Shown here piece by piece: positions 6,157 through 58,834 of a stretch of DNA of 64,000 nucleotides. This DNA comes from Beggiatoa leptomitoformis. Lineage in GTDB: Bacteria; Pseudomonadota; Gammaproteobacteria; Beggiatoales; Beggiatoaceae. Each line of letters opens with the position of its first letter. The first letter of the stretch is position 1. The stretch spans positions 3,234,261 through 3,298,260 of the forward strand of contig NZ_CP012373.2 of NCBI RefSeq assembly GCF_001305575.3, read 5' to 3'. Below the pieces are notes generated by a model. That model made no database searches. It was given only the letters and a program-made list of their open reading frames with translations, and was not told the DNA's origin. A program made the translations under genes and the position numbers.

Positions 6157-8622
6157 ATGCAATATCTCACGCATGGCTTAATAATCTTTATTTATCTAAC
6201 ACTTATCGCTTGTACAACTGCACCCATCCAACCGCCTAGCTCAACAAGCCTTTATCCGCCACAACCTGCTTATTTAGGCATTGGCTATGAACCTGTTAGC
6301 GAAATTAAGAAAAAAATCAGTGATGCACCGATGGATAGTGGTTTGCAAATCACGGGTATCTTGCCCAATTCGCCCGCTGAACGCAGTGGTTTAAAACCCC
6401 GCGATATTATTTTGCGCTTTAATGGACAGTCGTTAGAAAAAATAAAGTTTAGTGAATCTGCTCAAGCCTTTAGCCTATATATAGACCAAATGAAAGCAGG
6501 CGAGACGTTAACCTTGCAAGTGTTACGCATGGAAACGGTGATTAATGGCGAACGTAATCAGCAAGCATTGGATATTACGGATAGAGATGCGTTAGTAGAA
6601 ATCATGCGGTCGCAACAAATGGGTGAAACCTTAGCCTTTGAAATTAAAGAGCAATGGAAGCTGTTGGACATCACGGCAACGCTTGCACCGCGTGTGATAC
6701 AAGCACCTGTTCAATTGCCGTCGAATGCGCAATTGTTACCGCAGTTTGAAACCAGTACAAATCCATATCTCAATTTAATTGAAACCGTGATAAACGATTT
6801 TGCATTACGCCCCGCGTATCAAGATTTATTAGCCCGTTATGCGACAGATGAATTATGGGATGATAATTTTCGCTTGCGTTATATCCGTTATTTGCACCGT
6901 GACCCGTTAAAATTTCCTGTTGTTGCTGAAAATATGACGAATGCCTTGCTAACCGCTGGGAGTAGAACAGATGTTGATGCGTTACTTATGCAAGGGGCGG
7001 ATTTATTAGATATTAACGCAAATTTACCGCCAGATTTACCATATCCACCCGATACGCTAGACCCGCAAGCGCATATTGTTTATATACAAAAATTGCTTTA
7101 TAGCGCGTTACAAGCAAATATAAAAGCCTTTCAAGCCATTACGCCAGAAGAGCGCGCATTTTTACAGGATAATTTACCGCAACTTTTGCAGTTTTATACA
7201 ACGTTTTCCGCACCTGAATCGGTGCAAGCACAATTTCCGCGTGTGTTTGCACTGGCACATAAAATTGATTTTGTTGCTCTTTTTCAGTCTGCCTTGATTT
7301 TAAATCAGTTCAGTAATCCGCAATGGTTAGCGCGTTGTCAACAAGCCTTCAGCCAATTGCCGATTAATCCTGCTTTGCACGTTGCGAATGTAACAGGTGG
7401 ATTGCTTGCAGTGGTGGATACGGTCGCGGGAAAATTGTTAATTGGAGGGGCAGATATTAATCGCTATAACACGGATGTTGCCATGATTTTTGATGTCGGT
7501 GGCGATGATTTTTATATGGGTGACACAGGGTTAACTGGTTGGCAACGTCCAATTACAGCCATTATTGATATTGCAGGGAATGATGAATATACGGCTACCC
7601 GTTTGGGTGGACAAGGAGCAGGGGTTTTTGGCACGGCTTTTTTGTTAGATAGGGCAGGCGATGACCATTATCAGGGAATACGCTTTGTGCAGGGTGCAGG
7701 GCTAATGGGTATCGGTATATTATTAGATTTACAAGGAAATGATAGTTATAGCGGACAAACTTATGCACAGGGAATGGGATTATGGGGTTATGGTTTATTA
7801 TTTGATTTACAAGGAAATGAGCATTATAACGCGACTTTGTACGGGCAGGGCGTTGGGGGTGCAAAAGGCTTAGGTTTGTTGTTGGACATGCAGGGTAATG
7901 ATGCGTATATCGCAACTGGTGGTTACGAGAGTAGTTACGGTACATCGGGGATTTTTCATGGTAGTTCGCAAGGTTCAGGGTTTGGATTTCGTAATAATAC
8001 TTCTGGTGGTGTGGGTTTATTAGTTGATGGACAAGGGGAAGACCAGTTTAAAGCGGGGAATTTTTCGCAGGGTGGCGGTTATTTTTTCGCGCTGGGCATA
8101 TTACGCAATGCGGGGATTGAAAACGATGTATATATCGGCTCGCGTTATGGTCAAGGTTTTTCTGCCCATTCGGCACTGGGTATGTTGATGGATGATGGCG
8201 GTGATGACCACTATCAGGGCTATAAAGGCGCGTTGCAAGCCGCTGCATGGGATTTAGGCACGGCGATGTTAATTGATAAGGCGGGTGATGATATTTATGA
8301 CAGTCGTGACTTAATGTTTTCCATCGCGGCTGCGGCACATAATGGATTTTCTTTATTTTTAGATAATAATGGACGCGACCAATATTTTTTCCCCTTAGAA
8401 CCAAGGGTAGGGAAAAATGATTATCATGGCGGTGCTAGTTTATCGTTTTGGATAGACAGTGGGGGCGAACTTGACCAGTATAATGGAAGTACAGAGCAAA
8501 ATAATTGGATTGGACGGTCAGGCGGAGAGTTTGGAATTCAAGTAGATTTAAATCAGGATATTCAGGCCGTTTTGCATGAGCAACAATTTAAAACTTTGTA
8601 TTATCATCCAATAACGCCTTAA
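6157..8622 (+). CDS. Lipoprotein with PDZ domain and beta-solenoid-like repeats
   Basis: An 821-residue protein starting at ATG 6157. The frame is open back to 6046 inside the flippase gene, but only the 6157 start gives a clear lipoprotein signal (hydrophobic stretch, lipobox LIAC, Cys19). Residues about 38-125 look like a PDZ domain (ILPNSPAERSGLKPRDIIL). A helical-looking middle follows. From about residue 440 to 745 there are roughly eleven units of 26-30 residues with the pattern LLDxxGNDxY...QGxG...G, rich in Asp, Gly and aromatics, suggesting a repetitive beta-solenoid, possibly calcium-binding. The protein should be anchored in the envelope. No enzymatic motif was recognised. Function unknown; a scaffolding or surface role is a guess. 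Confidence 0.75.
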   Translation: MQYLTHGLIIFIYLTLIACTTAPIQPPSSTSLYPPQPAYLGIGYEPVSEIKKKISDAPMDSGLQITGILPNSPAERSGLKPRDIILRFNGQSLEKIKFSESAQAFSLYIDQMKAGETLTLQVLRMETVINGERNQQALDITDRDALVEIMRSQQMGETLAFEIKEQWKLLDITATLAPRVIQAPVQLPSNAQLLPQFETSTNPYLNLIETVINDFALRPAYQDLLARYATDELWDDNFRLRYIRYLHRDPLKFPVVAENMTNALLTAGSRTDVDALLMQGADLLDINANLPPDLPYPPDTLDPQAHIVYIQKLLYSALQANIKAFQAITPEERAFLQDNLPQLLQFYTTFSAPESVQAQFPRVFALAHKIDFVALFQSALILNQFSNPQWLARCQQAFSQLPINPALHVANVTGGLLAVVDTVAGKLLIGGADINRYNTDVAMIFDVGGDDFYMGDTGLTGWQRPITAIIDIAGNDEYTATRLGGQGAGVFGTAFLLDRAGDDHYQGIRFVQGAGLMGIGILLDLQGNDSYSGQTYAQGMGLWGYGLLFDLQGNEHYNATLYGQGVGGAKGLGLLLDMQGNDAYIATGGYESSYGTSGIFHGSSQGSGFGFRNNTSGGVGLLVDGQGEDQFKAGNFSQGGGYFFALGILRNAGIENDVYIGSRYGQGFSAHSALGMLMDDGGDDHYQGYKGALQAAAWDLGTAMLIDKAGDDIYDSRDLMFSIAAAAHNGFSLFLDNNGRDQYFFPLEPRVGKNDYHGGASLSFWIDSGGELDQYNGSTEQNNWIGRSGGEFGIQVDLNQDIQAVLHEQQFKTLYYHPITP

Positions 8623-8626
8623 AATT

Positions 8627-8653
8627 AACCCTGTCAGAAAATCTGACAGGGTT
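8627..8653. terminator. Bidirectional terminator hairpin
   Basis: A perfect 12-bp stem (AACCCTGTCAGA and its complement) closes a 3-base AAA loop between two convergent genes. On the minus strand the stem is followed by a T-rich stretch (AATTTTAAGG), so it best serves ppiD. It could also end the lipoprotein transcript on the plus strand. Confidence 0.85.
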
Positions 8654-8661
8654 AGTTTCGT

Positions 8662-10626
8662 TTATTGAACTTTATCGGTAATGCGGTCTTGATACACCAT
8701 CACATCTGTCCCTACTTTCATTTCAGCGACAATTTGTTTAAATCCTGCATCACCTAAAGCACGCTTGATTTGTGTTTTCGAGCGGTCTGCTTCGGGATTA
8801 GCGGTTTCCTTGCCATTCTCAACCACCACAGCGGGTATTTCGCCTGCTTTAACGGCTAATAGGATGACAATGGCATAATCCCCATTATTTAAACTAACCC
8901 CTTGATATAAAGCTTTAGTCTCTGTTGGGTGTCCCATTTTAAAGGCTTCTCGCACGATTTCAGGGTATCCTAAACGGGAATTTTGTCTTTCTATCCATTG
9001 CGCAGGTTGTGGTTGTAAATCTTGCTTTTTAAACAGTGCATCAGGTGCTTCACCTTTTTGCAAATCAGCTAACAGGGTTTTCCCCAATTTTTCTGCTTCA
9101 GCAGTGCTTTTTTCTTGTTTTAACTTAGCAATAATCTCTTCTTTAACATCCGCTAAAGGACGTAATTGTGCAGGTTGATGTTCTTTTAGGCGGATAACTG
9201 CGACATGTTGCGGTTTGTCTAGTTCTAATACTTCGCTGTTGTAGCGATTTTCTAACACTTGTTCACTAAAAGCGGATTCAATCACTTTGCGATTACTTAA
9301 GAAAGTATCTTTTTCACCTGTTTCTGTTTTGGCAAATAATGCGGTGGTTTTGATAGGATGTTTTAATGTATCCGCAATGGCTTGCAAACTATTAGGGTTT
9401 TCAAAAGCTAAGTCTGCCATTTGTTCTGCGTGTGTGTAAAAAGCCTGTTCTGCTTCTTCTGTTTGAACTTTTTTCAGCAATTCGTCCCGCACACTTTCAA
9501 ATGGTTTAGTAATCGTTGGTTTAGCATCAACGAGTTGGATAATGTGGAAACCAAATTGTGTTTTAACAGGTTTGTCGCTAATATCCCCAACTTTCATGCT
9601 TTTAATGGCTTCTTCAAAAGGTTTAACCATGAAGCCTTCACCAAACCAACCTAAATCCCCACCTTTGTCTTTATTACTGGTATCCGCAGAAAACGCTTTT
9701 GCAGATTCATCAAATGTTTTTTCTTGCGCTTTTATTTTCGCTAGAATGTCATTTGCTTGTTTTTCTGCGTCCGCCAATTTTTCGGGGCTGGCATCTTGGG
9801 GAACTTCAATAAGAATGTGTTTAGCCTGCCATTGTCCCGGTGTTGTAAAAGAAGCAAGACGTTCTTTATATTGTTCTTTCAGATGTTCTTCGGTAATAGC
9901 TTGGGCTGCGGCTAATTCTTCTTGTGAAAACTCAATGTATTCAAGACTGACTTTTTCAGGTGTTTTAAACGCATCTGGATGGTCTTGATAGTATTTATTG
10001 ATTTCTGCATCATCCACAACGACTTGTGCTGTAAAACGATTGGCGGGAATAGTGAGGTAGCTAACTGAGCGTTGTTGTTTTTCTAACTGCGTCCGTTGCG
10101 TCAGTTCCGCAGAACTAATAAATGCGGAGTTGGTAATGCCATCTTGCAGTTGAGATACCAATAAGGAACGGCGCATCTCTACTTCAAATCCGCTAGGATT
10201 CATGCCTTGTGAGCGGAGGGCTTGTTCATAAATCGGTTGGGAAAACATGCCCCCTTGTTGAAACATGGGGAATTGATGGATTTGTTTGGCTAACATCATA
10301 TCGCCAATTCGCATTCCATGATTTATTGCAGTCTGCATTAAAACTTCTTGTTCAATTAAGCGATTTAATGTTTCTTTGCGAATTTGCGCTTCCATGAAGG
10401 ATAAATCGGCTTGTTGCGTCATGCTTCGTAATTGACGCTTTTGTTGGTCGACCGCTTGTTCAAAATTTAAACTTGAAATTTCTACACCATTAACTTCTGC
10501 AACGGCTACCCCACGCGAGGGGCTGAGATATTCTTGAATACCCCATAGCGCAAAAGGAATTGAAATCAGGATGATTAATGCCCAGCCCAGCCATCCTTGA
10601 ATACCTGCACGCATACCTTGTAGCAT
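8662..10626 (-). CDS. ppiD: Periplasmic folding chaperone PpiD (SurA-like/parvulin)
   Basis: A 654-residue protein with an N-terminal signal anchor (about residues 12-31, WLGWALIILISIPFALWGI), a SurA-N-like chaperone region, and one parvulin PPIC domain around residues 265-370 (QAKHILIEVP ... GGDLGWFGEG ... TQFGFHIIQLVD). Length and order match PpiD, the inner-membrane-anchored chaperone that handles proteins leaving SecYEG. It belongs to the lon-hup-ppiD neighbourhood seen in many gammaproteobacteria. Here an acetyltransferase gene and two tRNAs lie between hup and ppiD. It ends at the hairpin 8627-8653. Confidence 0.93.
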   Translation of the reverse strand: MLQGMRAGIQGWLGWALIILISIPFALWGIQEYLSPSRGVAVAEVNGVEISSLNFEQAVDQQKRQLRSMTQQADLSFMEAQIRKETLNRLIEQEVLMQTAINHGMRIGDMMLAKQIHQFPMFQQGGMFSQPIYEQALRSQGMNPSGFEVEMRRSLLVSQLQDGITNSAFISSAELTQRTQLEKQQRSVSYLTIPANRFTAQVVVDDAEINKYYQDHPDAFKTPEKVSLEYIEFSQEELAAAQAITEEHLKEQYKERLASFTTPGQWQAKHILIEVPQDASPEKLADAEKQANDILAKIKAQEKTFDESAKAFSADTSNKDKGGDLGWFGEGFMVKPFEEAIKSMKVGDISDKPVKTQFGFHIIQLVDAKPTITKPFESVRDELLKKVQTEEAEQAFYTHAEQMADLAFENPNSLQAIADTLKHPIKTTALFAKTETGEKDTFLSNRKVIESAFSEQVLENRYNSEVLELDKPQHVAVIRLKEHQPAQLRPLADVKEEIIAKLKQEKSTAEAEKLGKTLLADLQKGEAPDALFKKQDLQPQPAQWIERQNSRLGYPEIVREAFKMGHPTETKALYQGVSLNNGDYAIVILLAVKAGEIPAVVVENGKETANPEADRSKTQIKRALGDAGFKQIVAEMKVGTDVMVYQDRITDKVQ

Positions 10627-10652
10627 GAGTGTCTCCCATAAGTTAGAAATAG

Positions 10653-11291
10653 TTAAACGGATGAATTTGTCTTGAGTTTATCAATATTGTTATTAACGAG
10701 ATGATGGAGATTTGCGGTTATTTTTTCTATATCCCAGTTCCACCATTGTATCTCTAATAATTCTTTAATTTGTTGCGTTGAAAAGCGTTTACGAATTTCT
10801 CTTGCTGGATTTCCACCAACTATAGCATAGGGTTCTACGTGTTTAGTAACGGTTGCGTTTGTGGCAATAATTGCTCCATCGCCAATGTGAACACCCGGCA
10901 TAATCGTTGCGTTTGTGCCAATCCACACATCGTTTCCTATAATCGTGTCACCTTTTAAGGATAAGTCGTTAAGTGTTGGTGTTATTGTTTCCCATCCGTG
11001 ACCAAAAATAGTAAAGGGATACGTTGTTATTCCATCCATTCGATGATTTGCGCCACCCATGATAAAGGTTGCGCCAGAGGCTATCATACAAAATTTACCG
11101 ATAATAAGTTTATCGCCTATAAAATCAAAGTGATACTTTACATTTTTTTCAAAGTTATGTATGTCTTCAAAATCATCATAGTAGGTATAATCACCTATAA
11201 GAATATTAGGATTTGTAATGATGTTTTTTAGAAAACACAATCTATTGTAATTTTTTAAGGGATAGATTGCGTTTTTATCAGGGCCTAGCAT
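10653..11291 (-). CDS. CatB/Vat-like hexapeptide O-acetyltransferase
   Basis: A 212-residue left-handed beta-helix protein of the xenobiotic acetyltransferase (XAT/CatB) type. Hexapeptide repeats are visible (VWIGTNATIMPGVHIGDGAI), followed by the typical NPAREIRKRF tail. The family moves acetyl from acetyl-CoA to hydroxyls of antibiotics or sugars. Family resemblance does not show drug resistance; many such proteins modify surface sugars. ATG 11291 is chosen because relatives begin close to the GPDKNAIYP segment; an upstream GTG at 11309 would add six residues. It lies 26 bases upstream of ppiD on the same strand, is AT-rich, and interrupts the usual hup-ppiD adjacency, suggesting later insertion. 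Confidence 0.8.
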   Translation of the reverse strand: MLGPDKNAIYPLKNYNRLCFLKNIITNPNILIGDYTYYDDFEDIHNFEKNVKYHFDFIGDKLIIGKFCMIASGATFIMGGANHRMDGITTYPFTIFGHGWETITPTLNDLSLKGDTIIGNDVWIGTNATIMPGVHIGDGAIIATNATVTKHVEPYAIVGGNPAREIRKRFSTQQIKELLEIQWWNWDIEKITANLHHLVNNNIDKLKTNSSV

Positions 11292-11374
11292 GTTTGTAAT
11301 TGATGCCACTTGAATGATGCTGATGCAAGTAACCTATGCTTAATATTAGGTTTTTATAGGAAATTAGCCAAAAA

Positions 11375-11401
11375 AAAAGGTGCATATAGTATGCACCTTT
11401 T
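11375..11401 (-). terminator. Rho-independent terminator of the tRNA-Val/tRNA-Asp unit
   Basis: A 12-bp perfect stem (AAAAGGTGCATA and its complement) with a 3-base loop. On the minus strand it is followed by a run of T residues (11371-11374 and beyond). It lies 10 bases beyond the 3' end of tRNA-Asp. Confidence 0.88.
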
Positions 11402-11411
11402 GACAAATCAT

Positions 11412-11488
11412 TGGCGGAGCGGACGGGGCTCGAACCCGCGACCCCCGGCGTGACAGGCCGGTATTCTAACCAACTGAACTACCACTCC
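11412..11488 (-). tRNA. tRNA-Asp (GUC)
   Basis: A 77-base cloverleaf on the minus strand. The acceptor GGAGUGG pairs with CCGCUCC (one G-U), the T loop is GGUUCGAGCC, and anticodon GUC lies in the loop CUGUCAC. The 3' CCA is encoded. It lies 41 bases downstream of tRNA-Val, and both probably share a transcript ending at 11375-11401. Confidence 0.96.
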
Positions 11489-11529
11489 AAGAAATCTATA
11501 CACAATTTTATTTTTCTTATTTTATTAAC

Positions 11530-11605
11530 TGGTGGGTGTTGAGGGGCTTGAACCCCCGACCCCCGCCTTGTAAGGGCGATGCTCTACCAACTGAGCTAAA
11601 CACCC
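11530..11605 (-). tRNA. tRNA-Val (UAC)
   Basis: A 76-base cloverleaf on the minus strand. The acceptor GGGTGTT pairs fully with AACACCC, the D arm is GCTCAGTTGGTAGAGC, the anticodon loop CTTACAA gives UAC, and CCA is encoded. It is located just downstream of hup. Confidence 0.96.
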
Positions 11606-11671
11606 ACTAACCAATCAATGAAGAACATATTATAGTACAAAAAAGCAAAACTACAAGTCTTTTTGTAAAAA

Positions 11672-11944
11672 TTAATTCACAGAATCTTTCAGGGCCTTGC
11701 CTGGTTTGAAAACAGGTACTTTTGCCGCTTTAATATCTAATGGCTTGCCTGTACGTGGGTTACGACCAGTACGTGCAGCACGTTCACGCACGGTGAAAGT
11801 ACCAAATCCAATTAACGTTACCGTATCATCTTCTGTTAAAGCTTTTTTAATGCTATCTAACACCGCATCGACAGCTTTAGCAGCAGTAGTTTTTGGAATG
11901 TCAATTGATTCAGCGACTGCCTGAACGAGTTCTGATTTGTTCAT
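11672..11944 (-). CDS. hup: DNA-binding protein HU
   Basis: A 90-residue HU/IHF-family protein, the usual length. MNKSELVQAVAES is the canonical opening, GFGTFTVRERAARTGRNPRTG is the DNA-gripping arm, and the end VPVFKPGKALKDSVN is standard. HU is a small dimeric nucleoid protein that bends and compacts DNA. It is closer to HU-beta than IHF by its arm sequence. It follows lon by 142 bases with a hairpin between them, so it probably has its own promoter in that gap. The start ATG has a GGGGGAAA stretch just upstream as ribosome binding site. Confidence 0.96.
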   Translation of the reverse strand: MNKSELVQAVAESIDIPKTTAAKAVDAVLDSIKKALTEDDTVTLIGFGTFTVRERAARTGRNPRTGKPLDIKAAKVPVFKPGKALKDSVN

Positions 11945-23800: not shown

Positions 23801-24334
23801 TTATTTTACATCAGGGTCATACATCTCATGCTTAATCTTATGCCGATTAGCAATCAACGTATCGATGTCAGGCTCATCTTTTAACGCCCGCGCAATTGCA
23901 AGCTTAGTTGCCTCATAATTGGTGCGATACAAATCTTTCTCATCAGGATTTTTGACACACGCAGGATCAATCCAAACCATAATAATCATACAAAGATTAT
24001 TCACTTGATCACGCGGGATAACGCCCTCAATCACACAATCTAAAATCGCATCAGCCGTTGCCGCTTGTACAACGCCACCGTACAGATTCACATAATCCAT
24101 ACTTTTCATCGTTACTTTAGGCACTATTAACGCCGCAGGACGAATTTGCTGATTACACGCCCGAATCACAAACATCCGCGTATGACCTTCCGTCTGCCCC
24201 ATCAAATTCGCAAACGCATAACCAACAGGACCATTTACATCCCCAATAATAATTTCTGGCATTGCGTCTGTCCCCTGCTCATTAGACGCAAAAACGGTGG
24301 CTTCCCCTGTTTTAAATATAATTTTTTCAGACAT
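23801..24334 (-). CDS. Formaldehyde-activating-enzyme-like protein lacking the catalytic His
   Basis: A 177-residue homologue of Fae, which condenses formaldehyde with tetrahydromethanopterin in methylotrophs. GEATVFASNE, then GPVGYAFANLM, VIRACNQQIRPAALIVPKVT and a YEATKLAIARAL end match the family. In characterised Fae the catalytic His precedes DL-IIG by one turn. Here the aligned residue appears to be Met25 (DAMPEIIIG), and the preceding loop is three residues longer. It is therefore probably a Fae-like paralogue of changed or unknown activity rather than a true Fae. It has its own terminator and stands alone between che and sulfurtransferase genes. Confidence 0.75.
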   Translation of the reverse strand: MSEKIIFKTGEATVFASNEQGTDAMPEIIIGDVNGPVGYAFANLMGQTEGHTRMFVIRACNQQIRPAALIVPKVTMKSMDYVNLYGGVVQAATADAILDCVIEGVIPRDQVNNLCMIIMVWIDPACVKNPDEKDLYRTNYEATKLAIARALKDEPDIDTLIANRHKIKHEMYDPDVK

Positions 24335-25505: not shown

Positions 25506-25705
25506 TTAGGAAGAATCAATATTCACCTGAATTTTTACATCACCAATAAACAAATCGTTACGAAAAGCATCACTAATGGGCAAATTAGCAGCAGGCAATG
25601 TATCTACTCCCCCGCCATTCTTTCCAATTCTTCCATCGTCAACTCGCCATCATCTAGTGCGGTTTCAGCTTGAAATTTATCAGATATTGTTATGGTTTTT
25701 ACCAT
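25506..25705 (-). pseudogene. Frameshifted double-glycine-leader peptide (RiPP/bacteriocin-like precursor)
   Basis: Starting at ATG 25705, the frame reads MVKTITISDKFQAETA, then LDDGELTMEELERMAGE and stops at 25604. One base added to the run of five C on the plus strand (25609-25613; G on the coding strand) turns the end into ELERMAGG and continues as VDTLPAANLP, ISDAFRNDLF, IGDVKIQVNIDSS to TAA at 25506, giving 66 residues. EELERMAGG is a typical double-glycine leader end recognised by C39-peptidase transporters, and the acidic leader resembles Nif11/CTB-type peptides. No Shine-Dalgarno sequence or transporter gene was seen. The core has no Cys. The break is either a real mutation, slippage, or a sequence error. 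Confidence 0.55.
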
Positions 25706-25800
25706 AATTAAAGTTATTGTTGGAAAATATAGGTAACGTTAAGTCTTTAAAAAAAGACAACACATAAGCCATAAAATTATGATGAATAATAACACCATTA

Positions 25801-26951
25801 TTATAAATCAATATCATGCAATCGTACCCATTCAGCAAATAAAGGGACGCGCATTTTCCAGTGTTTATCATTATCTTGCACGATATACGCATGACGCTTT
25901 AAACGGCGTAACGCCTCGCGATGACTGGGCGGTTCTTGGTTAATAAGTTGGCGCACGGTTTCGCGACAGGTTTCTTGCTCACAAAATTGCGTCCAAAAGA
26001 CTGATTGAGGCATTACACCAGAATCTAAGGCAATTTCTACCGCCTTATCTAAATCTGTTTGTGTCATTTGGCGACGATTATCACGATTTGCATAATCAAC
26101 TAAATTTTGACAAATGAGCTGTAATAAATGCGGATGTCCTTGCGTTAAATCATAAATTTTTTGCACTACTTCGGCAGGATATTGTAAGTTTTTAACTGGT
26201 TCAGTAAGTAAGCGTTTACTGTCTGTTTCACTTAAATAATCTACTGTTAGCGTTTGCGCTTGGACAAAATAATCGCTCCAGCGTGGATTCTCTAACTCAT
26301 CTAAATAAGCCGAACCAATCAATAAAAAAACAATACGGTTTTGTCGTTGTAAAAAACTCCGTATAGCGGCTAATAATCGCCCGCCAGTATCTGGGGATTT
26401 GCGAAAAATATCAGTATGCAACATTTCATATTCATCCAGCGCGAAAATGATTTTTTTCGCTTGGTGTTCGCTTTCACGAAATAAATGGGTTTCTAACGTT
26501 GCCCAATCGTCTAACCAGTCGCCTGTTGGTTGCCACGCTTTCGCCGTTGTCAGGTGCATTTTTTCATTAAACTGCTGATATAAATTAGCAAGCCAACTTT
26601 CTACAGTTGTAAATCTTGCGTAATCACCAAAAACCGACTGCCCAGTAAATCGGGCAAAAAGTTTAATAAACTGGTTTTTCCGACGCGCCGTTGTCCCCGA
26701 ATCAGAAAAAAGGGCAATTCTTGTGCAGTGAGTAATTTAGTTGTAATCGTATCGCGTAAATCTTCGCGCCCGAAGAAAACTGTCTGATTTTTATGTGGAG
26801 AGAGAGGATTACCCGCTAAATAAACATTAGGCGTAATCGGCTCAAGCTGGCGCATTTGCTCGGCTAATTCTTGCTGTTTATCTTTAGTCGCCGTGAGCCA
26901 TTGTTTTATTACAGGAATATAATAGTGATTCCAGTGCGGAGATTCGCGCAA
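25801..26951 (-). pseudogene. AAA-like ATPase, broken by a one-base frameshift
   Basis: Two frames together make one STAND/ATPase_2-like protein. 26601-26951 carries FFGREDLRDTI and Walker A IRGQRRVGKTSLLNFL, then stops. 25801-26559 continues with Walker B-like IIFALDEYEML, a NLQYPAEVVQKIYDLTQGHP segment and a winged-helix end (SHREALRRLKRHAYIV). Adding one A in the CAACT segment at about 26605-26609 gives DLQTVESWLANLYQ and joins them. No ATG start exists for the first part; it opens upstream from the TTG at 26951 to about 27050. These ATPases often occur next to small peptides. The leader-peptide gene follows 95 bases downstream. Confidence 0.6.
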
Positions 26952-27053
26952 AGTCAGTTCATAAAACTGCTGAAGTTGTTGCGCAAATTGCTTAAAAAAT
27001 AAGTTTTTTTGTGATGTAGCGTAGATTTTAGCAATTGAGGAGAAAAAAGATTA

Positions 27054-27737
27054 TTATTTATTCGTATAAATCTTTTTTAACCAATTGACTAAATATTTAT
27101 ATGAATCAGCATCTTTATCTATAAGAGGGGATTTTTGGTCTAGAACACAATCAACGTGGTATTTAGGTAAATCTTGCCATGCTAACCATGTAGCAACTTC
27201 AATTTTTGTTGTATGAATATCCTTAAATTTTTTAAAATGATGTTGTTCTAAATCAGCTACAGTTTTTTCTACGTGACAAAACAATGCTTGTTCGTCTTTA
27301 ACGATACATGACTTAATCCAATCTTCGAACATCCCATCTTTTTTATTGTCTGGCATAATCCATACACCAAAGTCGGATAATCCATCAGAATGTTTAAAAC
27401 TAAGTCCATTTAAATAGCTTGTATTGTCTCGTAATTCGAAGCCAAAAGGACTCATAATTTCTTTAATTTGTTCAAGTGTTTTTGTTGCACCAAGTCCATG
27501 ATGTTCAACATAATCAGCATCTACAACTATAGCTAAATGGTGAATACTCCCATCATTAAGTTGATGTAATAATGTAGGTAAGTGCTTTAGTACGCCTTGT
27601 TTAGTGTTATAGCGACCCCCTAAATCTCGAGGCGGAGCAACTGTCACCTTGAGAGATAGATTAAGGGTTTCACACAAGCGACTAAAAAAGCCTTTATCAG
27701 TATCACCTTCAACTAGCAACAAATTCTCTTGATACAT
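27054..27737 (-). CDS. DUF3226/TOPRIM-like protein, partner of the upstream ATPase
   Basis: A 227-residue protein with a TOPRIM-like layout: LLLVEGDTDKGFF has the conserved acidic Glu10, and LAIVVDADYVEHHG has the paired Asp73 and Asp75. This resembles DUF3226, a small TOPRIM family related to OLD nucleases. Start ATG 27737 overlaps the stop of the ATPase gene by one base (TGATG); a TTG just before is less likely. Coupling to an OLD-like ATPase suggests a two-subunit nuclease complex, as in PARIS (AriA/AriB) or Gabija-like defence. Those systems use different second families, so the assignment is by architecture only. Confidence 0.65.
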   Translation of the reverse strand: MYQENLLLVEGDTDKGFFSRLCETLNLSLKVTVAPPRDLGGRYNTKQGVLKHLPTLLHQLNDGSIHHLAIVVDADYVEHHGLGATKTLEQIKEIMSPFGFELRDNTSYLNGLSFKHSDGLSDFGVWIMPDNKKDGMFEDWIKSCIVKDEQALFCHVEKTVADLEQHHFKKFKDIHTTKIEVATWLAWQDLPKYHVDCVLDQKSPLIDKDADSYKYLVNWLKKIYTNK

Positions 27738-28900
27738 CAACGAACCTCAACATCTGATTGAGTGATGCTATAAAGTTGTTCCTCGTTAAAAACAGTCGCA
27801 ATAATTTGACCATGATTACTTTGTCGAACACTTTTACCAACACGAAAGAGAACCCCTTCTATATCTTTCTGTTCTCTCGCTACTTTTGAAAAACTCTCAA
27901 TACAATCCCAACTATGTGTTGTCGCAAAAATTTGTATATTTAATTTTTCTGATAACGTAAACAAAAGTGTCCAGATTTTTTCTTGAACACTATAATGAAG
28001 CCCATTCTCAAACTCATCTATTAATAAAAATCCGCCTTTAGCAGGGAAAGTTTTTAAAACCAACTGAAATACTCTTAACATGCCATCTCCTAAGCTATTA
28101 AGAGAAACTGGGCGTGACAAACCTGACATTTTAACTTTAGGTAAACGTTTAGAAATTTTACGCCCTGTAACTGATCTAAATTCATCATCATTGACGAAAG
28201 TAATATTTTGAAAATCAGGTTCGATAATTTGCATTGCCTTGATAACAATATCCTCTTCTTCTTGGCGAAATACAATTTTATCCCACTCATCAGCAAGTTC
28301 GTCGATTGACAGAAATTGTGTCGGAATAGTGCTACAAGGAATACTGTAATTGTCACGGGACATTAGCCTATTATAACGATTACGGTTATCAAGACTGATG
28401 ATGGTTGTCTTCTCCTCCTTTGTGACGAGCAAAGCAGGTCTGATAGGTTCATTTTCTATTTTTTCAAATTCAGATGGAGACACTACACGACGTTCCACTT
28501 TGGTGACTGATCCTGCTAGACTCTCGGTAATCGTAGTTTCTTCTTCCACAACAAATATATGTTGAATTTGTAATAACTGGGAAGAATTAGCATTAATCTC
28601 TCCAATTTCTATTTTTGTAGTATCGTCTTTTGGAAATTGTCTGCCTGTAAAAAAATCTTCAAATGGAAATATTGTATTAGCATTAATGCTATCTTCTTCT
28701 ATTCTAAACTTCTCATCATGGCTAGCAGCAATTTCTTGTAGTAATAGTGAATTAGCATTGCCAGCAAATATTTGTAATGCTTCGAGAACCGTACTTTTTC
28801 CAGAGTTATTTTTACCCACAATTAAATTAACGTGTCCAAGTTTATCAACTTGGAAATTTTGAAGTAGTCTAAAATTCTTTATTTTTAAAGAATGTAACAT
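27737..28900 (-). CDS. OLD-like AAA family ATPase
   Basis: A 387-residue ABC/SMC-type ATPase of the AAA_15/AAA_21 OLD-like group. Walker A is GKNNSGKSTVLEAL (residues 29-42), the signature region is around SLNSLGDGMLRVFQL, Walker B is FLLIDEFENGLH and the switch His is in IFATTHSWDC. It lacks a fused TOPRIM domain. ATG 28900 has AGGT upstream; a GTG at 28915 is the alternative. It overlaps the DUF3226 gene by one base. The pair resembles antiphage or abortive-infection modules. The 290 bases upstream (28901-29190) hold no gene and probably its promoter. Confidence 0.8.
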   Translation of the reverse strand: MLHSLKIKNFRLLQNFQVDKLGHVNLIVGKNNSGKSTVLEALQIFAGNANSLLLQEIAASHDEKFRIEEDSINANTIFPFEDFFTGRQFPKDDTTKIEIGEINANSSQLLQIQHIFVVEEETTITESLAGSVTKVERRVVSPSEFEKIENEPIRPALLVTKEEKTTIISLDNRNRYNRLMSRDNYSIPCSTIPTQFLSIDELADEWDKIVFRQEEEDIVIKAMQIIEPDFQNITFVNDDEFRSVTGRKISKRLPKVKMSGLSRPVSLNSLGDGMLRVFQLVLKTFPAKGGFLLIDEFENGLHYSVQEKIWTLLFTLSEKLNIQIFATTHSWDCIESFSKVAREQKDIEGVLFRVGKSVRQSNHGQIIATVFNEEQLYSITQSDVEVR

Positions 28901-29190
28901 AAAAATTACCTGCACAAAAAATTATAGTTTCATGGCTCTGTTTTGAGTTCTGAAATGTAGAAATTAAGCTCATTATACTAGGAAAAATACTACTCAACTA
29001 TTATTACAAATCTTCATAAAAATTATGCTGATTATCCAATGACTAAAAACCGAATACAACAAAAAAACCGATAAAATACAAGAAGCCCCACTTATTTGAT
29101 AATGCTTTATTTCCTGTCACAATACCGAAAACATAAGCCAGAATAGGCTTTACTCTTCAATAAACAATCAAAAAACGAGGAACTATAACT

Positions 29191-30558
29191 ATGTCAGTTT
29201 TCCGTGCCTATGATGTGCGTGGTATTGTCGGTGACGATTTAACCATTGAATTAGTAGAAAAAATTGGTAAAGCCATCGGCACAGAAGCCGCGCAAAAAGG
29301 CATCAAACAAGTCGTGATTGCCCGCGATGGGCGTTTATCAGGCGAACAACTGCAAAACGCACTCGCACAAGGGATTATCAGCACGGGGCGCGATGTGATT
29401 AACGTCGGACGTGTTCCGACACCTGTTTTATATTTCACCACGTATCATTTACAAACAGGCACAGGTGTTATGGTCACAGGTAGCCATAATCCACCTGAAT
29501 ACAATGGTTTAAAAATCATGTTGGACGGAGAAACTTTGTCAGGCGGGAGTATTCAAAGCTTACGTGAACGGGTTGAAAATGGCGATTTTATTCAGCAAGC
29601 ACAAGGCTCAATTTCTCAGTTTGCAATTGAAGATATTTATATTCAACGTATTGTTAATGACGTGACGTTAAAGCGACCGTTTAAAGTTGTCGTTGACAGT
29701 GGGAACGGGGTTGCGGGTGAAATCGCGCCAAAATTATTACGCGCTTTAGGTTGTGAAGTGATTGAATTATTCTGTGAAATTGATGGTAATTTTCCGAATC
29801 ATCATCCTGACCCGAGCTTACCCGAAAATTTACAGGATTTAATCAAGGCAGTGAAAACCCATCAAGCGGATATTGGGTTAGCATTTGATGGCGATGCAGA
29901 CCGCTTAGGTGTGGTAGATGTCAACGGGCAAATTGTGTTCCCCGACCGTCAAATGATGCTGTATGCTATGGATGTTTTAAAACGTAATCAAGGGGCTAAA
30001 ATTATTTATGATGTGAAATGTAGCCGTCATTTAAGCCGTGTGATTCGGGAACATGGGGGCGAACCTGTGATGTGGAAAACAGGACATTCTTTAATTAAAT
30101 CTAAGTTAAAAGAAACGGGTTCACCACTCGCGGGAGAAATGAGCGGACATATTTTCTTTAAAGAGCGTTGGTATGGTTTTGATGATGCGATTTATACCGC
30201 AGCGCGTTTATTGGAGATTTTGGCAAGCGACCCACGCACACCGACAGAAGTTTTAAGCGCGTTACCTAATGCGGTAAGTACACCAGAGCTAAAATTAGAG
30301 TTGGCGCATTATGGCGAACATTTCCAATTGATGGAAAAAGTGAGTAGCACTTTCCAGTTTGAAGGTGCAGAAGTATCGACCATAGATGGCGTGCGTGCGG
30401 ATTTTAAAGATGGTTGGGGTTTAGTCCGCTCTTCAAATACAACGCCTTGTTTAGTTATTCGTTTTGAGGCGGATACACAGGAAGCTTTGGAGAAAATTCA
30501 GGCAGATTTTCGTCGACAATTTATGGCGATTGATAGCGGGTTAAAATTGCCGTTTTAA
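29191..30558 (+). CDS. algC: Phosphomannomutase/phosphoglucomutase
   Basis: A 455-residue alpha-D-phosphohexomutase. The active serine is Ser98 in VTGSHNPPEYNG, the metal loop is AFDGDADRLG, the sugar-specificity loop GEMSGHIFF is GEMSG as in AlgC-like PMM/PGM enzymes, and the phosphate-binding end is RSSNTTPCLVIRFE. It interconverts mannose-6-P/mannose-1-P (and glucose phosphates), supplying GDP-mannose and LPS/exopolysaccharide precursors. ATG 29191 has a GAGGAA Shine-Dalgarno. It is 59 bases upstream of a cytochrome b561 gene. The AlgC/CpsG assignment is by the motif pattern; dual specificity is inferred. Confidence 0.92.
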   Translation: MSVFRAYDVRGIVGDDLTIELVEKIGKAIGTEAAQKGIKQVVIARDGRLSGEQLQNALAQGIISTGRDVINVGRVPTPVLYFTTYHLQTGTGVMVTGSHNPPEYNGLKIMLDGETLSGGSIQSLRERVENGDFIQQAQGSISQFAIEDIYIQRIVNDVTLKRPFKVVVDSGNGVAGEIAPKLLRALGCEVIELFCEIDGNFPNHHPDPSLPENLQDLIKAVKTHQADIGLAFDGDADRLGVVDVNGQIVFPDRQMMLYAMDVLKRNQGAKIIYDVKCSRHLSRVIREHGGEPVMWKTGHSLIKSKLKETGSPLAGEMSGHIFFKERWYGFDDAIYTAARLLEILASDPRTPTEVLSALPNAVSTPELKLELAHYGEHFQLMEKVSSTFQFEGAEVSTIDGVRADFKDGWGLVRSSNTTPCLVIRFEADTQEALEKIQADFRRQFMAIDSGLKLPF

Positions 30559-30616
30559 AAATTGCCTGCGTTACATTTTTAATGGCTAAAGTGACTAGAT
30601 AACTAAAGGAAACATC

Positions 30617-31183
30617 ATGATACCTTTATACAATACTGATGAGCGTTATGGTAGTGTAGCGATGTTTTTTCACTGGGCGATTGCGTTGTTATTTCTGATT
30701 TTAGTGGTTTTAGGCTTAACCATGACGGATATGGAAGATAGCAACGAAAAATGGCAGTTGTACAGTTTGCATAAGTCTTTTGGGCTGACATTGGCTTTAT
30801 TAGTAATTTTGCGGATTTTTTGGCGGTTTACCAATCCTGTCCCTTTATTGCCTGAGACTTTAAAAGCGTATGAAAAATTTTTAGCCCATGCGGTGCATAT
30901 TGGTTTATACGGCATTATGTTGATTATGCCAATTTCGGGCATTATTGATTCCTATGCGGGCGGTTATAAAGTGGATTTTTTTGGTCTTAGTTTATTGCCT
31001 AAATCCCCAAAGCGTAGCGAGTTAGGCGAATCCATTGCGTTAATGGTACATGTGTACGGTTCTTATGTGTTTTATGGCTTATTTTTTCTACATATTGCAG
31101 GGGTTATTAAGCATCATTTCATTTTAAAAGATAATACTTTAAGAAGGATGTTGCCTATTGCTTTAAGGTTAAAGATTAAATAA
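30617..31183 (+). CDS. Cytochrome b561 family protein
   Basis: A 188-residue integral membrane protein with four predicted helices. Candidate haem-ligand histidines are in MFFHWAIALLF (His19), LHKSFGL, HAVHIGLYG and FLHIAGVIKHH. This is the CybB-type di-haem cytochrome b561, which passes electrons between quinones and periplasmic acceptors, for example to superoxide. sodC lies about 860 bases further on, which could be relevant to superoxide handling. The length is normal for CybB. A weak hairpin follows it. Confidence 0.88.
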   Translation: MIPLYNTDERYGSVAMFFHWAIALLFLILVVLGLTMTDMEDSNEKWQLYSLHKSFGLTLALLVILRIFWRFTNPVPLLPETLKAYEKFLAHAVHIGLYGIMLIMPISGIIDSYAGGYKVDFFGLSLLPKSPKRSELGESIALMVHVYGSYVFYGLFFLHIAGVIKHHFILKDNTLRRMLPIALRLKIK

Positions 31184-49255: not shown

Positions 49256-49323
49256 TCTAAAACAGGGGGCGAGCAATTCGTTCGCCCTACTTTCTTTTTA
49301 TGACTATTATTTATAATAAAGAT

Positions 49324-49623
49324 ATGCGGGTTATTTCTCACAAAAAAATAAGAGACTTTTACGAGCAACATCCAACAGTAAAAAGCTCATTGGAAGCGTT
49401 TTATAATATTATAAAATATACTGATTTTGATAGCTTTAATGACTTAAGAAAAACATTTCCTAGTGCAGATATTGTTAATAAGTGTACAGTATTCAATGTT
49501 GGTGGAAATAAAGTTAGAGTTATTGCAGCTATTCACTATAACAAACACCGAATTTATATTAAGTGGGTGCTGACACATGAAGAATACGATAAAAATAGTT
49601 GGAAAAAAGAATGTTCCAACTGA
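49324..49623 (+). CDS. higB: HigB-type toxin (mRNA interferase family)
   Basis: A 99-residue HigB_toxin family protein, as in RelE-like toxins of type II modules. MRVISHKKIRDFYEQHP, DLRKTFPSADIVN, FNVGGNKVRVIAAIHYNKH and [18 protein letters not shown] are all characteristic, including the typical C-terminal HEEYDK. These cleave mRNA on the ribosome when the antitoxin is lost. ATG 49324 opens the conserved MRVIS; the frame also extends to 49300. It overlaps the following antitoxin gene by 47 bases, with toxin first, as in Hig modules. Confidence 0.87.
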   Translation: MRVISHKKIRDFYEQHPTVKSSLEAFYNIIKYTDFDSFNDLRKTFPSADIVNKCTVFNVGGNKVRVIAAIHYNKHRIYIKWVLTHEEYDKNSWKKECSN

Positions 49624-50065
49624 ACTTTTTCAAGGGATATTACAAGGATTACAGTCTTTGATGACGCTTATGACACCTGAGTTGATTGCTCAGATTAGTA
49701 AGTTGTGGTTAACCTCTATATTTACACCAGCACAAACAGAAGAGGATTACAAAATTCAAGTTGCTTTATTAGATATTTTGCTTGAAAGTGTTGATGATGA
49801 TCAACAACCATTAGCAAGTTTAGTAGAAATATTGGGTACGCTAGTGGCTGTTTATGAGGAAGAGCATTACCCAATTGGAAGTGTCTCGAATAATGTCGCG
49901 TTAACGTTTCTTATGGAACAACATTGCTTAAAAATAAGCGATTTATCTGAAATTGGAAATCAAAAAGAGATGTCGGAAATTTTGAATGGAAAACAGTCAT
50001 TAAATACACAACAAATTGATTTGTTAAGCCAACGCTTTCATGTATCGCCAAGTATTTTTTCTTAA
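49577..50065 (+). CDS. higA: HigA-like antitoxin with HTH domain
   Basis: A 162-residue partner of HigB. The C-terminal half has an XRE-like helix-turn-helix ([34 protein letters not shown]); the N-terminal half is an acidic helical region typical of the longer HigA variants. It should bind HigB and repress the operon. It overlaps higB by 47 bases and the convergent pth by 4 bases. The order toxin-antitoxin and size match HigBA. Confidence 0.85.
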
Positions 50066-55713: not shown

Positions 55714-56103
55714 TTATTCAGCTTCAACAGGTTCAATAGCAGTTTCTGGTCTATCAACTAACTCAACAATTGCCATTGGTGCTTTGTCGCCTGTTCTGAA
55801 ACCGCATTTTAAAATGCGTAAATATCCACCTGGACGCTCTTTATAACGGGGTCCCAATTCATTGAATAACTTGGTGACAATTTCCCGATCACGCAATCTT
55901 GCAAACGCTAAACGACGTTTGGCGACACTGTCTTCTTTCGCTAACGTGATTAAGGGTTCGGCAACACGGCGTAGTTCTTTCGCTTTGGGCAGAGTGGTTT
56001 TAATGATTTCGTGACGCATCAAGGAAGCCGCCATATTTTTAAACATGGCTTTTCGATGACTGCTGTTACGACTCAGCTGTCTGCCTGCATTACGATGACG
56101 CAT
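55714..56103 (-). CDS. rplQ: 50S ribosomal protein L17
   Basis: A 129-residue L17. [20 protein letters not shown] and the middle part [22 protein letters not shown] are canonical, and the closing segment [20 protein letters not shown] is complete. It is the last gene of the alpha operon, 36 bases after rpoA, ending 20 bases before the strong terminator. Confidence 0.98.
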
Positions 56104-56139
56104 GATTTTTATCCTAAATACAAATGTTCAGAACCAATT

Positions 56140-57138
56140 TTAAGAACCTGACGGTTGTTCGTCGTATAAACCCATAGGGGGCCAGTTCTCTAAACGCATA
56201 CCCAAAGAGAGTCCACGCGACGCTAACACATCTTTGATCTCTGTTAAAGATTTCTTCCCTAAATTGGGTGTCTTTAACAACTCGCTTTCAGTTTTTTGAA
56301 TTAAATCACCAATGTAATAAATACTTTCTGCTTTCAAACAATTCGCAGAACGCACGGTAAGTTCTAATTCATCAACTGGACGCAATAAGATTGGATCGAT
56401 GTCGACTTCTTGCTTTGGCATTTCAATTTGCGGTTTACCTTTTAAATCCGCAATAATTGACAATTGATCCATCAAAATAGAAGCCGCTTGTTTCACGGCT
56501 GATTCGGGATCAACAGTACCATTGGTTTCCAACTCAATAATTAATCTATCCAAATTGGTACGTTGTTCTACACGCGCATTTTCTACAGTGTAAGCAACAC
56601 GTTTAATCGGACTAAAAGAAGCATCAAGTTTTAATGCACCAATAGGGCTATCTTCTTCTTCTGAATAACGTTGGCTAGAGGGTTGATAACCACGACCAAT
56701 CTTAACTTTAAGTGTCATGTTCAACTCACCTGCTTTTGTCAAGTGAGCAATCTCATAATCACGATTGATAATCTCTAAATCATGATCCAACGTTATATCA
56801 GACGCACAAACAACACCAGGACCTTTTTTGTTCAGATGTAAAATAACTTCTGAACGACCATGCATTTTAATTGCAAGTCCCTTGAGGTTTAACAGGATTT
56901 CTACAACATCTTCCTGTACCCCTTCAATACTGGTGTATTCGTGTAAAACACCTTCAATGGTTGCCTCTACAACAGCAGAACCAGGTAAGGATGAGAGTAG
57001 AACACGTCTTAGGGCATTACCTAAGGTATATCCAAACCCTCGTTCCAACGGCTCCAACGTAATTTTCGCTATCGTTTCGGTAATGCGTTCGACATCAACA
57101 ATACGTGGTTTCAATAATTCCGTGACGTGGGATTGCAT
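56140..57138 (-). CDS. rpoA: DNA-directed RNA polymerase subunit alpha
   Basis: A 332-residue alpha subunit with both halves. The N-terminal assembly domain ([20 protein letters not shown]) and a C-terminal promoter/activator-contact domain ([18 protein letters not shown], then [13 protein letters not shown]) are complete. It nucleates RNA polymerase assembly. Alpha operon position after rpsD (24 bases). Confidence 0.99.
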
Positions 57139-57162
57139 AGCATGTCCTCTTAAGACAAAGGA

Positions 57163-57783
57163 TTACTTGGAGTACAATTCGACAACTAATTGTTCATTAA
57201 TGTCGCTAGGCAATTCCATCCGTGCAGGAGCTGCTTTGAAAACTCCTTGCATTTTACTCACATCCACATCAACCCATTCAGGAAAACCATATTCTTCCGC
57301 ACTGGATAAAGCACTTTTAATGCGCAGTTGGCTACGGCTTTTTTCACGTATAGCAACAATGTCTCCAGCCTTCACTTGATAGGAAGGAATGTTAACGCAT
57401 TGCTCGTTAATCACAATAGATTTGTGACTCACTAATTGTCTCGCCTCAGCACGTGTTGCGGCAAAACCCATACGATAAACAACATTATCTAAACGACATT
57501 CCAACAGATGCAACAAATTTTCACCCGTTGAACCTTTCATAGAACTCGCTTTTGCGTAGTAATTATGAAATTGACGTTCTAAAACGCCATACATACGGCG
57601 CAATTTTTGTTTTTCACGCAATTGTAAAGCATAGTCAGACAAACGTTGACGTCTATCCCCGTGTTGACCAGGTACTTTATCTAGCTTACATTTGGAATCC
57701 AGCGCACGAGCACGACTTTTTAAGAATAAGTCTGTCCCTTCACGACGGCTTAATTTACATTTAGGACCAAGGTATCTTGCCAT
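57163..57783 (-). CDS. rpsD: 30S ribosomal protein S4
   Basis: A 206-residue S4. Start ATG 57783 gives [20 protein letters not shown]; the frame opens further upstream to 57828 but that part overlaps rpsK. The S4 RNA-binding domain [20 protein letters not shown] is complete. In other gammaproteobacteria S4 represses the alpha operon translationally. Cysteines at residues 9 and 31 are not enough for a zinc site. Confidence 0.98.
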
Positions 57784-57797
57784 TTCGTTTCTCCTGA

Positions 57798-58187
57798 CTA
57801 GACGCGACGACGTTTGGGAGGACGACAACCATTATGGGGAATCGGCGTTGCATCAGTAATGCTCATGATTTTAAAACCACTTGCATTTAATGCACGTACT
57901 GCTGATTCACGACCAGGTCCAGGTCCTTTAATACGTACTTCTAAATTCTTTACACCATATTCCTTAATAGCGGCACCTGCTTTTTCAGCAGCAACCTGTG
58001 CTGCAAAAGGGGTACTTTTACGAGAGCCACGGAAACCTGTACCGCCCGCAGTTGCCCACGCTAAGGTGTTTCCCTGACGGTCGGTAATCGTAATAATGGT
58101 GTTGTTAAAAGAAGCATGAACATGTGCAATGCCATCTGTAACATTCTTTTTAACCCGTTTACGAACACGGGGGGCTACTTTTGCCAT
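57798..58187 (-). CDS. rpsK: 30S ribosomal protein S11
   Basis: A 129-residue S11. [20 protein letters not shown] and the end [20 protein letters not shown] are canonical. Part of the small-subunit platform. 14 bases before the rpsD ATG, 37 bases after rpsM. Confidence 0.99.
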
Positions 58188-58224
58188 ATTATTTCCTGTT
58201 TTTGTTAATTTTGGAGTTGTTTAC

Positions 58225-58581
58225 TTACTTCTTAATCGCTTTGCGTGGTCCCTTGCGGGTACGTGCGTTAGTACGGGTTCTTTGTCCATGTACCGTCAAT
58301 CCACGACGATGACGCAATCCGCGATAACAACCCAAATCCATTAAACGCTTAATATTCATGGCAACTTCGCGGCGTAAATCACCTTCTACGTTGTATTTAG
58401 CGACTTCTGCCCGCAAAACTTCTAATTCACCTTCTGTCAGGTCTTTTACTTTTCTATCAGGTGCGATGCCACTCGCTTCACAAATACTTTCAGCCCTTGT
58501 ACGACCAATCCCATAAATGGCGGTCAAAGCGATAACGGTATGCTTTTGTACCGGGATATTAATGCCGGCAATACGTGCCAT
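58225..58581 (-). CDS. rpsM: 30S ribosomal protein S13
   Basis: A 118-residue S13 with opening [20 protein letters not shown], the helix-two-turn-helix [14 protein letters not shown] and the end [20 protein letters not shown]. It contacts the tRNA P site and subunit interface. First gene of the alpha operon after rpmJ; the 61-base spacer upstream could hold the S4 operator but no fold was resolved. Confidence 0.99.
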
Positions 58582-58642
58582 AACTATTCCTCTAACCTAA
58601 ACTGTTGATTATCCGCTGTAATACTTTGCGGTTGCAAAATAA

Positions 58643-58756
58643 TTAACCTTGTCTTTGCTTGTGCCGTTTATCGCTACAAATTATCCGCACAGAGCCATTA
58701 CGACGGATAATCTTACAGTTGCGGCAAATCTTTTTAACAGATGCTCTGACTTTCAT
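58643..58756 (-). CDS. rpmJ: 50S ribosomal protein L36
   Basis: A 37-residue L36. [20 protein letters not shown] opens it and [13 protein letters not shown] closes it. The zinc ligands C-x2-C, then C and H, are all present (the C+ form). It lies between secY and rpsM, as in most gammaproteobacteria. Confidence 0.97.
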
Positions 58757-58764
58757 GATGAGTT

Positions 58765-58834
58765 ACCAGTTATCAGTGATGTTGATTACCAGCTATCCGT
58801 GCTTTACATAATGCTAAAGCCTCTGATAACTGGT
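58765..58834. repeat. Inverted repeat between rpmJ and secY
   Basis: ACCAGTTATCAG at 58765-58776 and its exact complement CTGATAACTGGT at 58823-58834, with a 46-base spacer that contains a partial copy (TTACCAGCTATC). The gene-free part is only 86 bases, so the repeat fills it. It could fold in the secY-rpmJ mRNA. Confidence 0.7.

Follow-up and report, generated by a model that had tools for sequence, protein, structure and literature searches.

An overlapping pair of OLD-type ATPase and DUF3226 Toprim genes in Beggiatoa leptomitoformis matches the candidate defence system PDC-M38

Introduction

What might an OLD-type ATPase and a protein of the DUF3226 family accomplish together when their genes share a single base? 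The question is raised by two minus-strand genes in a stretch of 64,000 nucleotides from Beggiatoa leptomitoformis (contig NZ_CP012373.2, positions 3,234,261 to 3,298,260; hereafter the window). A sequence-only reading of the window had taken them for a possible undescribed defence module, close in architecture to PARIS and perhaps a third organisation of the same ATPase-nuclease principle. The analysis presented here assigns the pair to PDC-M38, a candidate system already listed in PADLOC-DB. The two genes probably form an anti-phage module of this kind that was acquired horizontally, in which the ATPase (A) would control the DUF3226 protein (B) as a nuclease.

Results

Two overlapping genes of the PDC-M38 family

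The pair comprises the following features, in window coordinates:
27737..28900, minus strand: gene of an OLD/AAA_15-type ATP-binding cassette (ABC) ATPase (P0001, PDC-M38A, 387 amino acids), the proposed sensor or switch subunit
27054..27737, minus strand: DUF3226 Toprim gene (P0002, PDC-M38B, 227 amino acids), the proposed nuclease effector
27735..27739, minus strand: TGATG stop/start overlap of A and B in the sequence, TGA and ATG having one base in common

The ATPase gene opens with an ATG at 28900 (the mechanical list of open reading frames (ORFs) opens it at GTG 28915 instead), and its stop codon ends at 27737, the base shared with the ATG of the DUF3226 gene, which itself ends with a stop codon at 27054. 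The position and the one-base overlap reported earlier are therefore correct. The TGATG arrangement is likely to reflect translational coupling of A and B. Tight spacing is common among relatives: in 21 measured pairs the genes overlap by one base in 11 and by four bases in 3, lie 0-3 bases apart in 6, and are separated by 116 bases in a single locus (L041), where B starts late. A promoter scan returned 5 sites against 9.8 in shuffles, that is, fewer than in shuffled sequence.

Both proteins match PDC-M38 of PADLOC-DB 2.0.0 (models PDLC04611 and PDLC04623) over nearly the full model. Residues 1-387 of A align to positions 1-383 of the 383 in PDC-M38A (6.9e-155), and residues 3-224 of B to positions 3-218 of the 219 in PDC-M38B (1e-84). 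The two-gene make-up is the same, and no difference was found. Judged by sequence, the pair is PDC-M38, a listed, uncharacterised candidate system, and the label of an undescribed module has to be given up. The 'M' in the name stands for multi-gene. An earlier description is possible, either in the preprint that serves as reference for the PDC candidates or in a 2020 survey of ABC ATPases. One source presents PDCs as putative candidates obtained by guilt-by-embedding, most of which await experimental validation, with wording that concerns mainly the single-gene ones (PMC12988326).

All 33 extended loci had been picked for a B match, and A adjoins B in 31 of them. The two exceptions hold a fragment of B without an ATPase (L048) and an ATPase without a B detectable by our profile (L080). 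Incomplete versions also occur among the short loci: a short B with an ATPase in two pieces (G017), an ATPase piece with no B by our profile (G076), and a piece of B without an ATPase (G371). In L079 (9212-12580), two PDC-M38-like pairs stand in tandem on one strand in the order A-B-A-B. The pairwise identities of A and B co-vary (Spearman 0.76, n = 31, with none of 2000 permutations as high), a value that would be raised already by the common descent of the genomes. A and B are a real unit.

The distribution of the pair is patchy. The DUF3226 profile matches 6 of 274 genomes of the class and the PDC-M38B profile 13 of 398 genomes of the phylum, the genome of origin included in both counts. 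A search with the B protein of the window matched 15 of 57 genomes, again including its own; the other 14 are among the 35 that belong to the same family. A scan of genome contigs produced one locus (L022), in a metagenome-assembled genome of a Candidatus Thiosymbion ectosymbiont, at 68% identity.

Predicted active site and fold of the DUF3226 protein

B matches the Pfam family DUF3226 over residues 5-224 of 227 (1.1e-43). There are weak matches to OLD-like_TOPRIM (residues 4-28, 0.014) and to the PADLOC model mad4 (0.0098). An alignment of 33 B sequences, which includes that of the window and extends down to 16% identity to it, displays the following conserved sites, set beside residues of Bp OLD:
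27696..27710, minus strand: Toprim motif 1, Glu10 ... Asp14 (E10 in 32/33, D14 in 31/33 with Glu in the other 2); compare E400/E404
27513..27521, minus strand: Toprim DxD motif, Asp73-Ala-Asp75 (D73 in 32/33, D75 in 31/33); compare D455/D457
27324..27326, minus strand: Glu138 of the GxLED motif, the third acidic site (33/33); compare E508
27204..27206, minus strand: Lys178 in the C-terminal helical part (33/33; helix 173-186 of the model); compare K562

Gly135 is likewise kept in 33/33. Glu10, Asp73 and Asp75, the three Toprim acids named by the sequence-only reading, are thus well conserved, and Asp14, Gly135, Glu138 and Lys178, which it had missed, join them. The active site of Bp OLD is given as E400, E404, D455, D457, T506, E508 and K562 (PMC7049728). 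The correspondence, which is drawn from spacing and fold with no printed residue superposition, suggests that B carries the full OLD-type two-metal residue set E10, D14, D73, D75, E138 and K178.

The AlphaFold2 model of B has a predicted local distance difference test (pLDDT) score of 94.6. Its top structure match is PH0156, an uncharacterised archaeal protein (Z 11.9, root-mean-square deviation (rmsd) 3.4, 191 aligned residues), which also gives a value of 0.019 against B by sequence profile. The C-terminal nuclease region of Bp OLD follows with Z 10.6 (rmsd 5.0, 167 aligned), and Xcc OLD with Z 8.4 (rmsd 5.6, 172 aligned). By its motifs and its predicted fold, B is a Toprim protein.

The ATPase and its conserved C-terminal arginine

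A matches AAA_15 over residues 1-334 (3.8e-29, 102.9 bits) and also AAA_21, with no Pfam match to Toprim at E<=1, in agreement with the earlier description of an OLD/AAA_15-type ATPase lacking that domain. Among other PADLOC models, A fits AbiLi (PDLC02336) over the full model (1.1e-57) and AriA (1.7e-30); in NCBIfam it matches the MAD3 model (1.4e-10). The AlphaFold2 model of A (pLDDT 87.2) resembles PtuA (Z 17.3), GajA (16.4) and AriA (16.2), and SMC/Rad50 heads are similar, all of these matches lying at Z 15-17. The following motifs, whose names are our reading of the conserved residues, are invariant in 31 A sequences:
28793..28816, minus strand: Walker A, residues 29-36 (G29, N31, G34 and K35)
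28013..28018, minus strand: Walker B, Asp295-Glu296
27914..27916, minus strand: His329, read as the H-loop histidine

The residues invariant in the 31 sequences include G29, G34, K35, D295, E296, G300, H302, H329 and R387. The last of these is the C-terminal residue, and its codon lies close to a site that may serve the translation of B:
27740..27742, minus strand: codon of the C-terminal Arg387 of A (Arg at the exact end in 30/34 ATPases)
27744..27748, minus strand: GAGGT, a Shine-Dalgarno-like sequence in the last codons of A, upstream of the ATG of B

In the remaining four of the 34 ATPases, a set that includes the window and leaves out L017, L028, L059, L063, L080, L087 and L103, the arginine lies within two residues of the end (three sequences end in RG and one in RGE). 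The ATPase of L103, outside this set, likewise ends in VEVR. Six different Arg codons are used at the terminus, which indicates a constraint acting on the protein. At the third-last position Glu stands in 27/34 ATPases, and 21 of those 27 use GAG, the average share of which among the Glu codons of these genes is about 0.27. The excess of GAG (1.1e-7, tested against 0.28, and overstated since the sequences are related) fits a Shine-Dalgarno site for B. Residues 381-387 have a mean pLDDT of 58 and are poorly ordered in the monomer model. The conserved arginine is perhaps a contact with B. We met no earlier description of it, in a literature search that was not aimed at this feature.

Comparison with known systems

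Separate ATPase and Toprim genes are an established organisation for OLD-type ATPases. AbiL, MADS and PARIS appear among the ATPase-Toprim associations listed in one paper (PMC12409363), and another credits a 2020 survey with describing the gene neighbourhoods of Toprim-linked OLD-ABC ATPases (PMC12839542). The proposal of a third organisation falls with these precedents.

PARIS, for which two genes are the stated make-up, shares with the pair an OLD-type ATPase encoded beside a separate Toprim protein. PMC9122126 defines PARIS by AAA_15 or AAA_21 (cut-offs 32 and 27) together with DUF4435 (cut-off 27), as partner or fusion. A agrees with the AAA_15 part of this rule, and its predicted fold is near that of AriA. 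AriB, on the other hand, is a DUF4435 protein, whereas B is DUF3226. No match to DUF4435 (PF14491) was obtained in A or B at E<=1 or in the whole genome at E<=0.001, so the pair is not PARIS, a distinction that the sequence-only reading had drawn correctly.

OLD and GajA have the same ATPase type and the same two-metal Toprim residue set, and B resembles the C-terminal region of a class 2 OLD protein. In both, unlike in the pair, ATPase and Toprim domain are parts of one protein, and Gabija adds a helicase. Membership of Gabija or of the OLD fusions is ruled out by the separate genes, by the lack of Toprim in A noted above, and by the lack of a helicase adjoining the pair; the earlier statement that this is no GajA fusion holds.

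Of the two components of AbiL, A fits AbiLi over its full length, and the profile of B aligns with that of AbiLii/RloB relatives (probability 94.2, E 1.2e-7, 100 columns). Both AbiLii relatives that were scanned belong to RloB (PF13707), and in L091 they are encoded beside an AAA_21 ATPase, whereas B is DUF3226. AbiL is ruled out, B having no match to AbiLii at E<=1 and none to RloB. HEC-01 is similar in having an AAA_21 ATPase, HEC-01A, whose neighbour in L036 is a short DUF4276 gene, and differs in its partner family. MADS resembles the pair through the match of A to MAD3 and the weak match of B to mad4, with other partner families. MADS also has more genes than the pair.

Genomic contexts of relatives

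Some relatives of the pair are found in defence loci. In one locus (L072) it lies inside an Hma system, in the order HmaA - PDC-S06 - A - B - HmaB - HmaC. In L037 the gene immediately after B encodes a type IIG enzyme; the B fragment of L048 has the same position, and in L038 B is followed immediately by ZorD. The pair adjoins a type I restriction endonuclease in L083 and HEC-01A in L036. In the latter (8047-11748), the HEC-01A ATPase is accompanied by its short DUF4276 gene, so that two related dyads stand together. A reverse-transcriptase match in L082 covers part of the length and was not counted as defence. Twenty neighbours picked by hand, which include the truncated gene beside the pair in the window and two genes of a sister species (G001), were scanned singly, and 10/20 gave no match at the limits set.

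Mobile elements carry the pair as well. A virus contig (L103) encodes an integrase, A (50% identity), B, two ORFs, a piece of a DNA methyltransferase, a spanin, an endolysin, a holin and tail genes. It was the one viral contig matched by A, none being matched by B, and its own proteins retrieve only itself. No match was found for A or B in the phage collection. B is present in nine plasmid records, six of them typed mobilizable. One of the plasmids is a Citrobacter freundii plasmid of 6,449 bp, for which six genes are annotated in a gene table that is possibly incomplete: replication, traD, mobA, a GTPase, the ATPase and DUF3226. The Citrobacter ATPase had no match among the viral contigs, and the Citrobacter pair none among the E. 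coli genomes. On two Acinetobacter plasmids B stands beside a BrnT/BrnA toxin-antitoxin pair. The Acinetobacter haemolyticus plasmid pAHTJR2 (L087 2014-3858) keeps the DUF3226 gene, with the annotation of the ATPase gene split in two.

A defence role of the PDC-M38 family is likely, and it is these defence and mobile contexts of some relatives that support it. An association with defence islands, the lack of which was to count against the sequence-only reading, holds for some relatives and does not hold for the surroundings of the pair in the window.

Probable import of the pair and its surroundings in the window

The sister species G001 offers a view of the site with other contents. The flanking protein at 29191-30558 is 98% identical there, and the two sequences align over 25507-27011 (94.7%) and 29017-31156 (91.6%), leaving 27012-29016 unaligned. 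The affected parts of the window are:
27012..29016, no strand: segment with the pair, missing at the corresponding site of the sister species, which has about 1.95 kb of different sequence instead
25801..26951, minus strand: remnant of a STAND-type NTPase gene, its 5' side cut off at the import site, frameshifted

G001 has an intact gene for an nSTAND1-type NTPase of 756 amino acids at this site, together with a gene for a protein of 308 amino acids without a Pfam match; neither protein is matched in PADLOC. In this G001 locus (L084 6589-9805), the N-terminal half of the larger protein is hydrophobic by eye. The STAND-type NTPase locus may itself be a conflict system. The pair has a GC content of 33.7% against 40.7% for the window, and its third-position GC is 0.22-0.23 against 0.32-0.39 in five neighbouring genes. 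These sequence comparisons are most simply explained by import of the pair after the split of the two species, with replacement of part of the STAND locus.

The immediate neighbours of the pair are the STAND remnant and a protein of 455 amino acids, a phosphomannomutase by eye. About 20 kb from the pair, a HigB-type toxin gene (49300-49620, plus strand; PF09907, 3.2e-28) matches PD-Lambda-2_A, and an overlapping ORF of 162 amino acids (49577-50062, plus strand) matches the first part of PD-Lambda-2_B; the two (49300-50062) are likely a toxin-antitoxin pair. Fae, the formaldehyde-activating enzyme, is encoded at 23801-24334 (minus strand; PF08714, 9.3e-58), flanked by what read as chemotaxis-like and rhodanese-like genes. 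Further to the right, near the end of the window (55717-62672), Pfam identifies genes of the ribosomal proteins L17, S11, S13, L18 and S8.

Discussion

Several observations weigh against the reading of the pair as an acquired anti-phage module. A PADLOC scan at 1e-10 of 56 other ORFs of the window found no defence genes beside the pair; the seven families matched, among them TPR, C3a156, BrxL, DolB, PD-Lambda-2_A and PD-Lambda-2_B, have no member adjoining it. Several relatives stand beside core genes, identified by Pfam as purH, rpoB, ffh and lepA (L040, L042, L045) or by eye as purA- and purD-like (L029, L031). A bulk PADLOC scan of neighbours at 1e-25 matched 76 families among near proteins and 10 among far ones, from which enrichment is not demonstrable, as the output counts families instead of proteins hit and the far set, being taken from the same loci, is a poor control. 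The scan sampled 74/119 near and 46/80 far proteins of loci L022-L048, the near set being without L035:10473-16052 (a first neighbour) and L042:3-2744. Its leaders, among the near families listed, were HEC-01A, HEC-01B, type IIG enzymes, AriA and mad3 with 2 members each; in the far set mad3 had 2 members and the others 1 each. The search with B of the window matched 0/21 genomes outside its own family, and the clade is on this account partly lineage-bound. DUF3226 is also present in Methanocaldococcus jannaschii, the control of the profile search. A search of open-licence PubMed Central papers brought up none that names DUF3226 or PDC-M38, and none with an experiment on a member of PDC-M38. 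The structural comparison of B has its own limits: AriB (Z 7.3, rmsd 4.7, 172 aligned) and retron Eco2 (Z 6.8, rmsd 4.4, 177 aligned) rank under an unrelated fold (7.6), and no match at E<=0.001 came from Foldseek by itself, the OLD match having emerged by VIA re-ranking. Of the matches of the predicted structure, PH0156 and Bp OLD alone are clear of background, and AriB is at background level.

In the module that we favour, A, as an OLD-family ABC ATPase, would oligomerise, bind ATP and sense a phage-made signal. B would be made in a fixed ratio to A through coupled translation and would be held by it, the C-terminal arginine tail of A probably being one of the contacts. On sensing, the ATPase cycle would free or activate B, which would cut nucleic acid at the two-metal site formed by Glu10, Asp14, Asp73, Asp75, Glu138 and Lys178, and the infection would be stopped, most likely by cell shutdown. 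A bolder version, in which the pair forms a separate ATPase-Toprim branch whose arginine tail plugs into the nuclease as an off-switch and whose trigger or substrate is unlike those of PARIS and OLD, is speculative and rather doubtful.

The strongest competing account, which we hold tentatively and as less than probable, places the pair nearer to OLD and Gabija: B would be a DNA nuclease positioned by A on DNA, where it would nick or degrade invading DNA with no shutdown of the host. The best match of B among functionally studied structures is the C-terminal region of Bp OLD, followed by Xcc OLD, and Lys178 lies in a C-terminal helical part, as K562 does in the helical domain of Bp OLD; A, too, resembles SMC/Rad50-type ATPases. 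The same kind of fold is nevertheless seen in AriB, a tRNA nuclease, so that the fold does not give the substrate, and the pair, unlike Gabija, has no helicase gene beside it.

A mechanism after PARIS, in which A would sense an anti-restriction or other phage protein and release B to cut tRNA, seems unlikely to us, if conceivable. The order of the genes, ATPase then Toprim, is the same, AriA is a structural neighbour of A, and a back-up to restriction would be in keeping with the placement of some relatives next to restriction enzymes and within Hma. B itself speaks against it, as a protein outside DUF4435 whose sequence similarity to AriB is weak and limited to the first motif (E 0.019) and whose fold match to AriB is at background.

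That the pair is a maintenance module of the toxin-antitoxin kind on plasmids and phages, with a toxic B restrained by A and no specific phage sensing, is improbable. It would account for the small mobilizable plasmids that carry the pair, two of which have BrnT/BrnA adjoining, but not readily for the intact ATPase motifs or the Hma-embedded copy. In PARIS, the nearest studied relative, deletion of either gene is described as non-toxic (PMC9122126). The state of pAHTJR2 points to a B that on its own is not lethal in that setting, a situation that should not arise with a strict toxin. A housekeeping role in DNA repair or the cell cycle has a parallel in Cran1, an archaeal ATPase of the OLD family with a reported cell-cycle function (PMC12796447). 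Such a role would suit the relatives that adjoin core genes and is very improbable in view of the patchy distribution, the absence from this site in the sister species, the low GC content and the plasmid and phage copies.

Four points are of most use: the apparently complete nuclease site, the conserved tail of the ATPase, the comparison of sites that points to import, and the carriage by phage and plasmids. They turn the DUF3226 pair into a concrete nuclease hypothesis, with what appears to be a full OLD-type active site in B and the tail of A as a possible control contact. Compact natural copies exist, one of them on a mobilizable plasmid of 6.4 kb. Copies of PDC-M38 occur on plasmids and on a phage contig, the system can lodge inside another immune system, and the site in Beggiatoa leptomitoformis suggests that it can also gain entry to a genome by taking the place of part of an adjacent locus.

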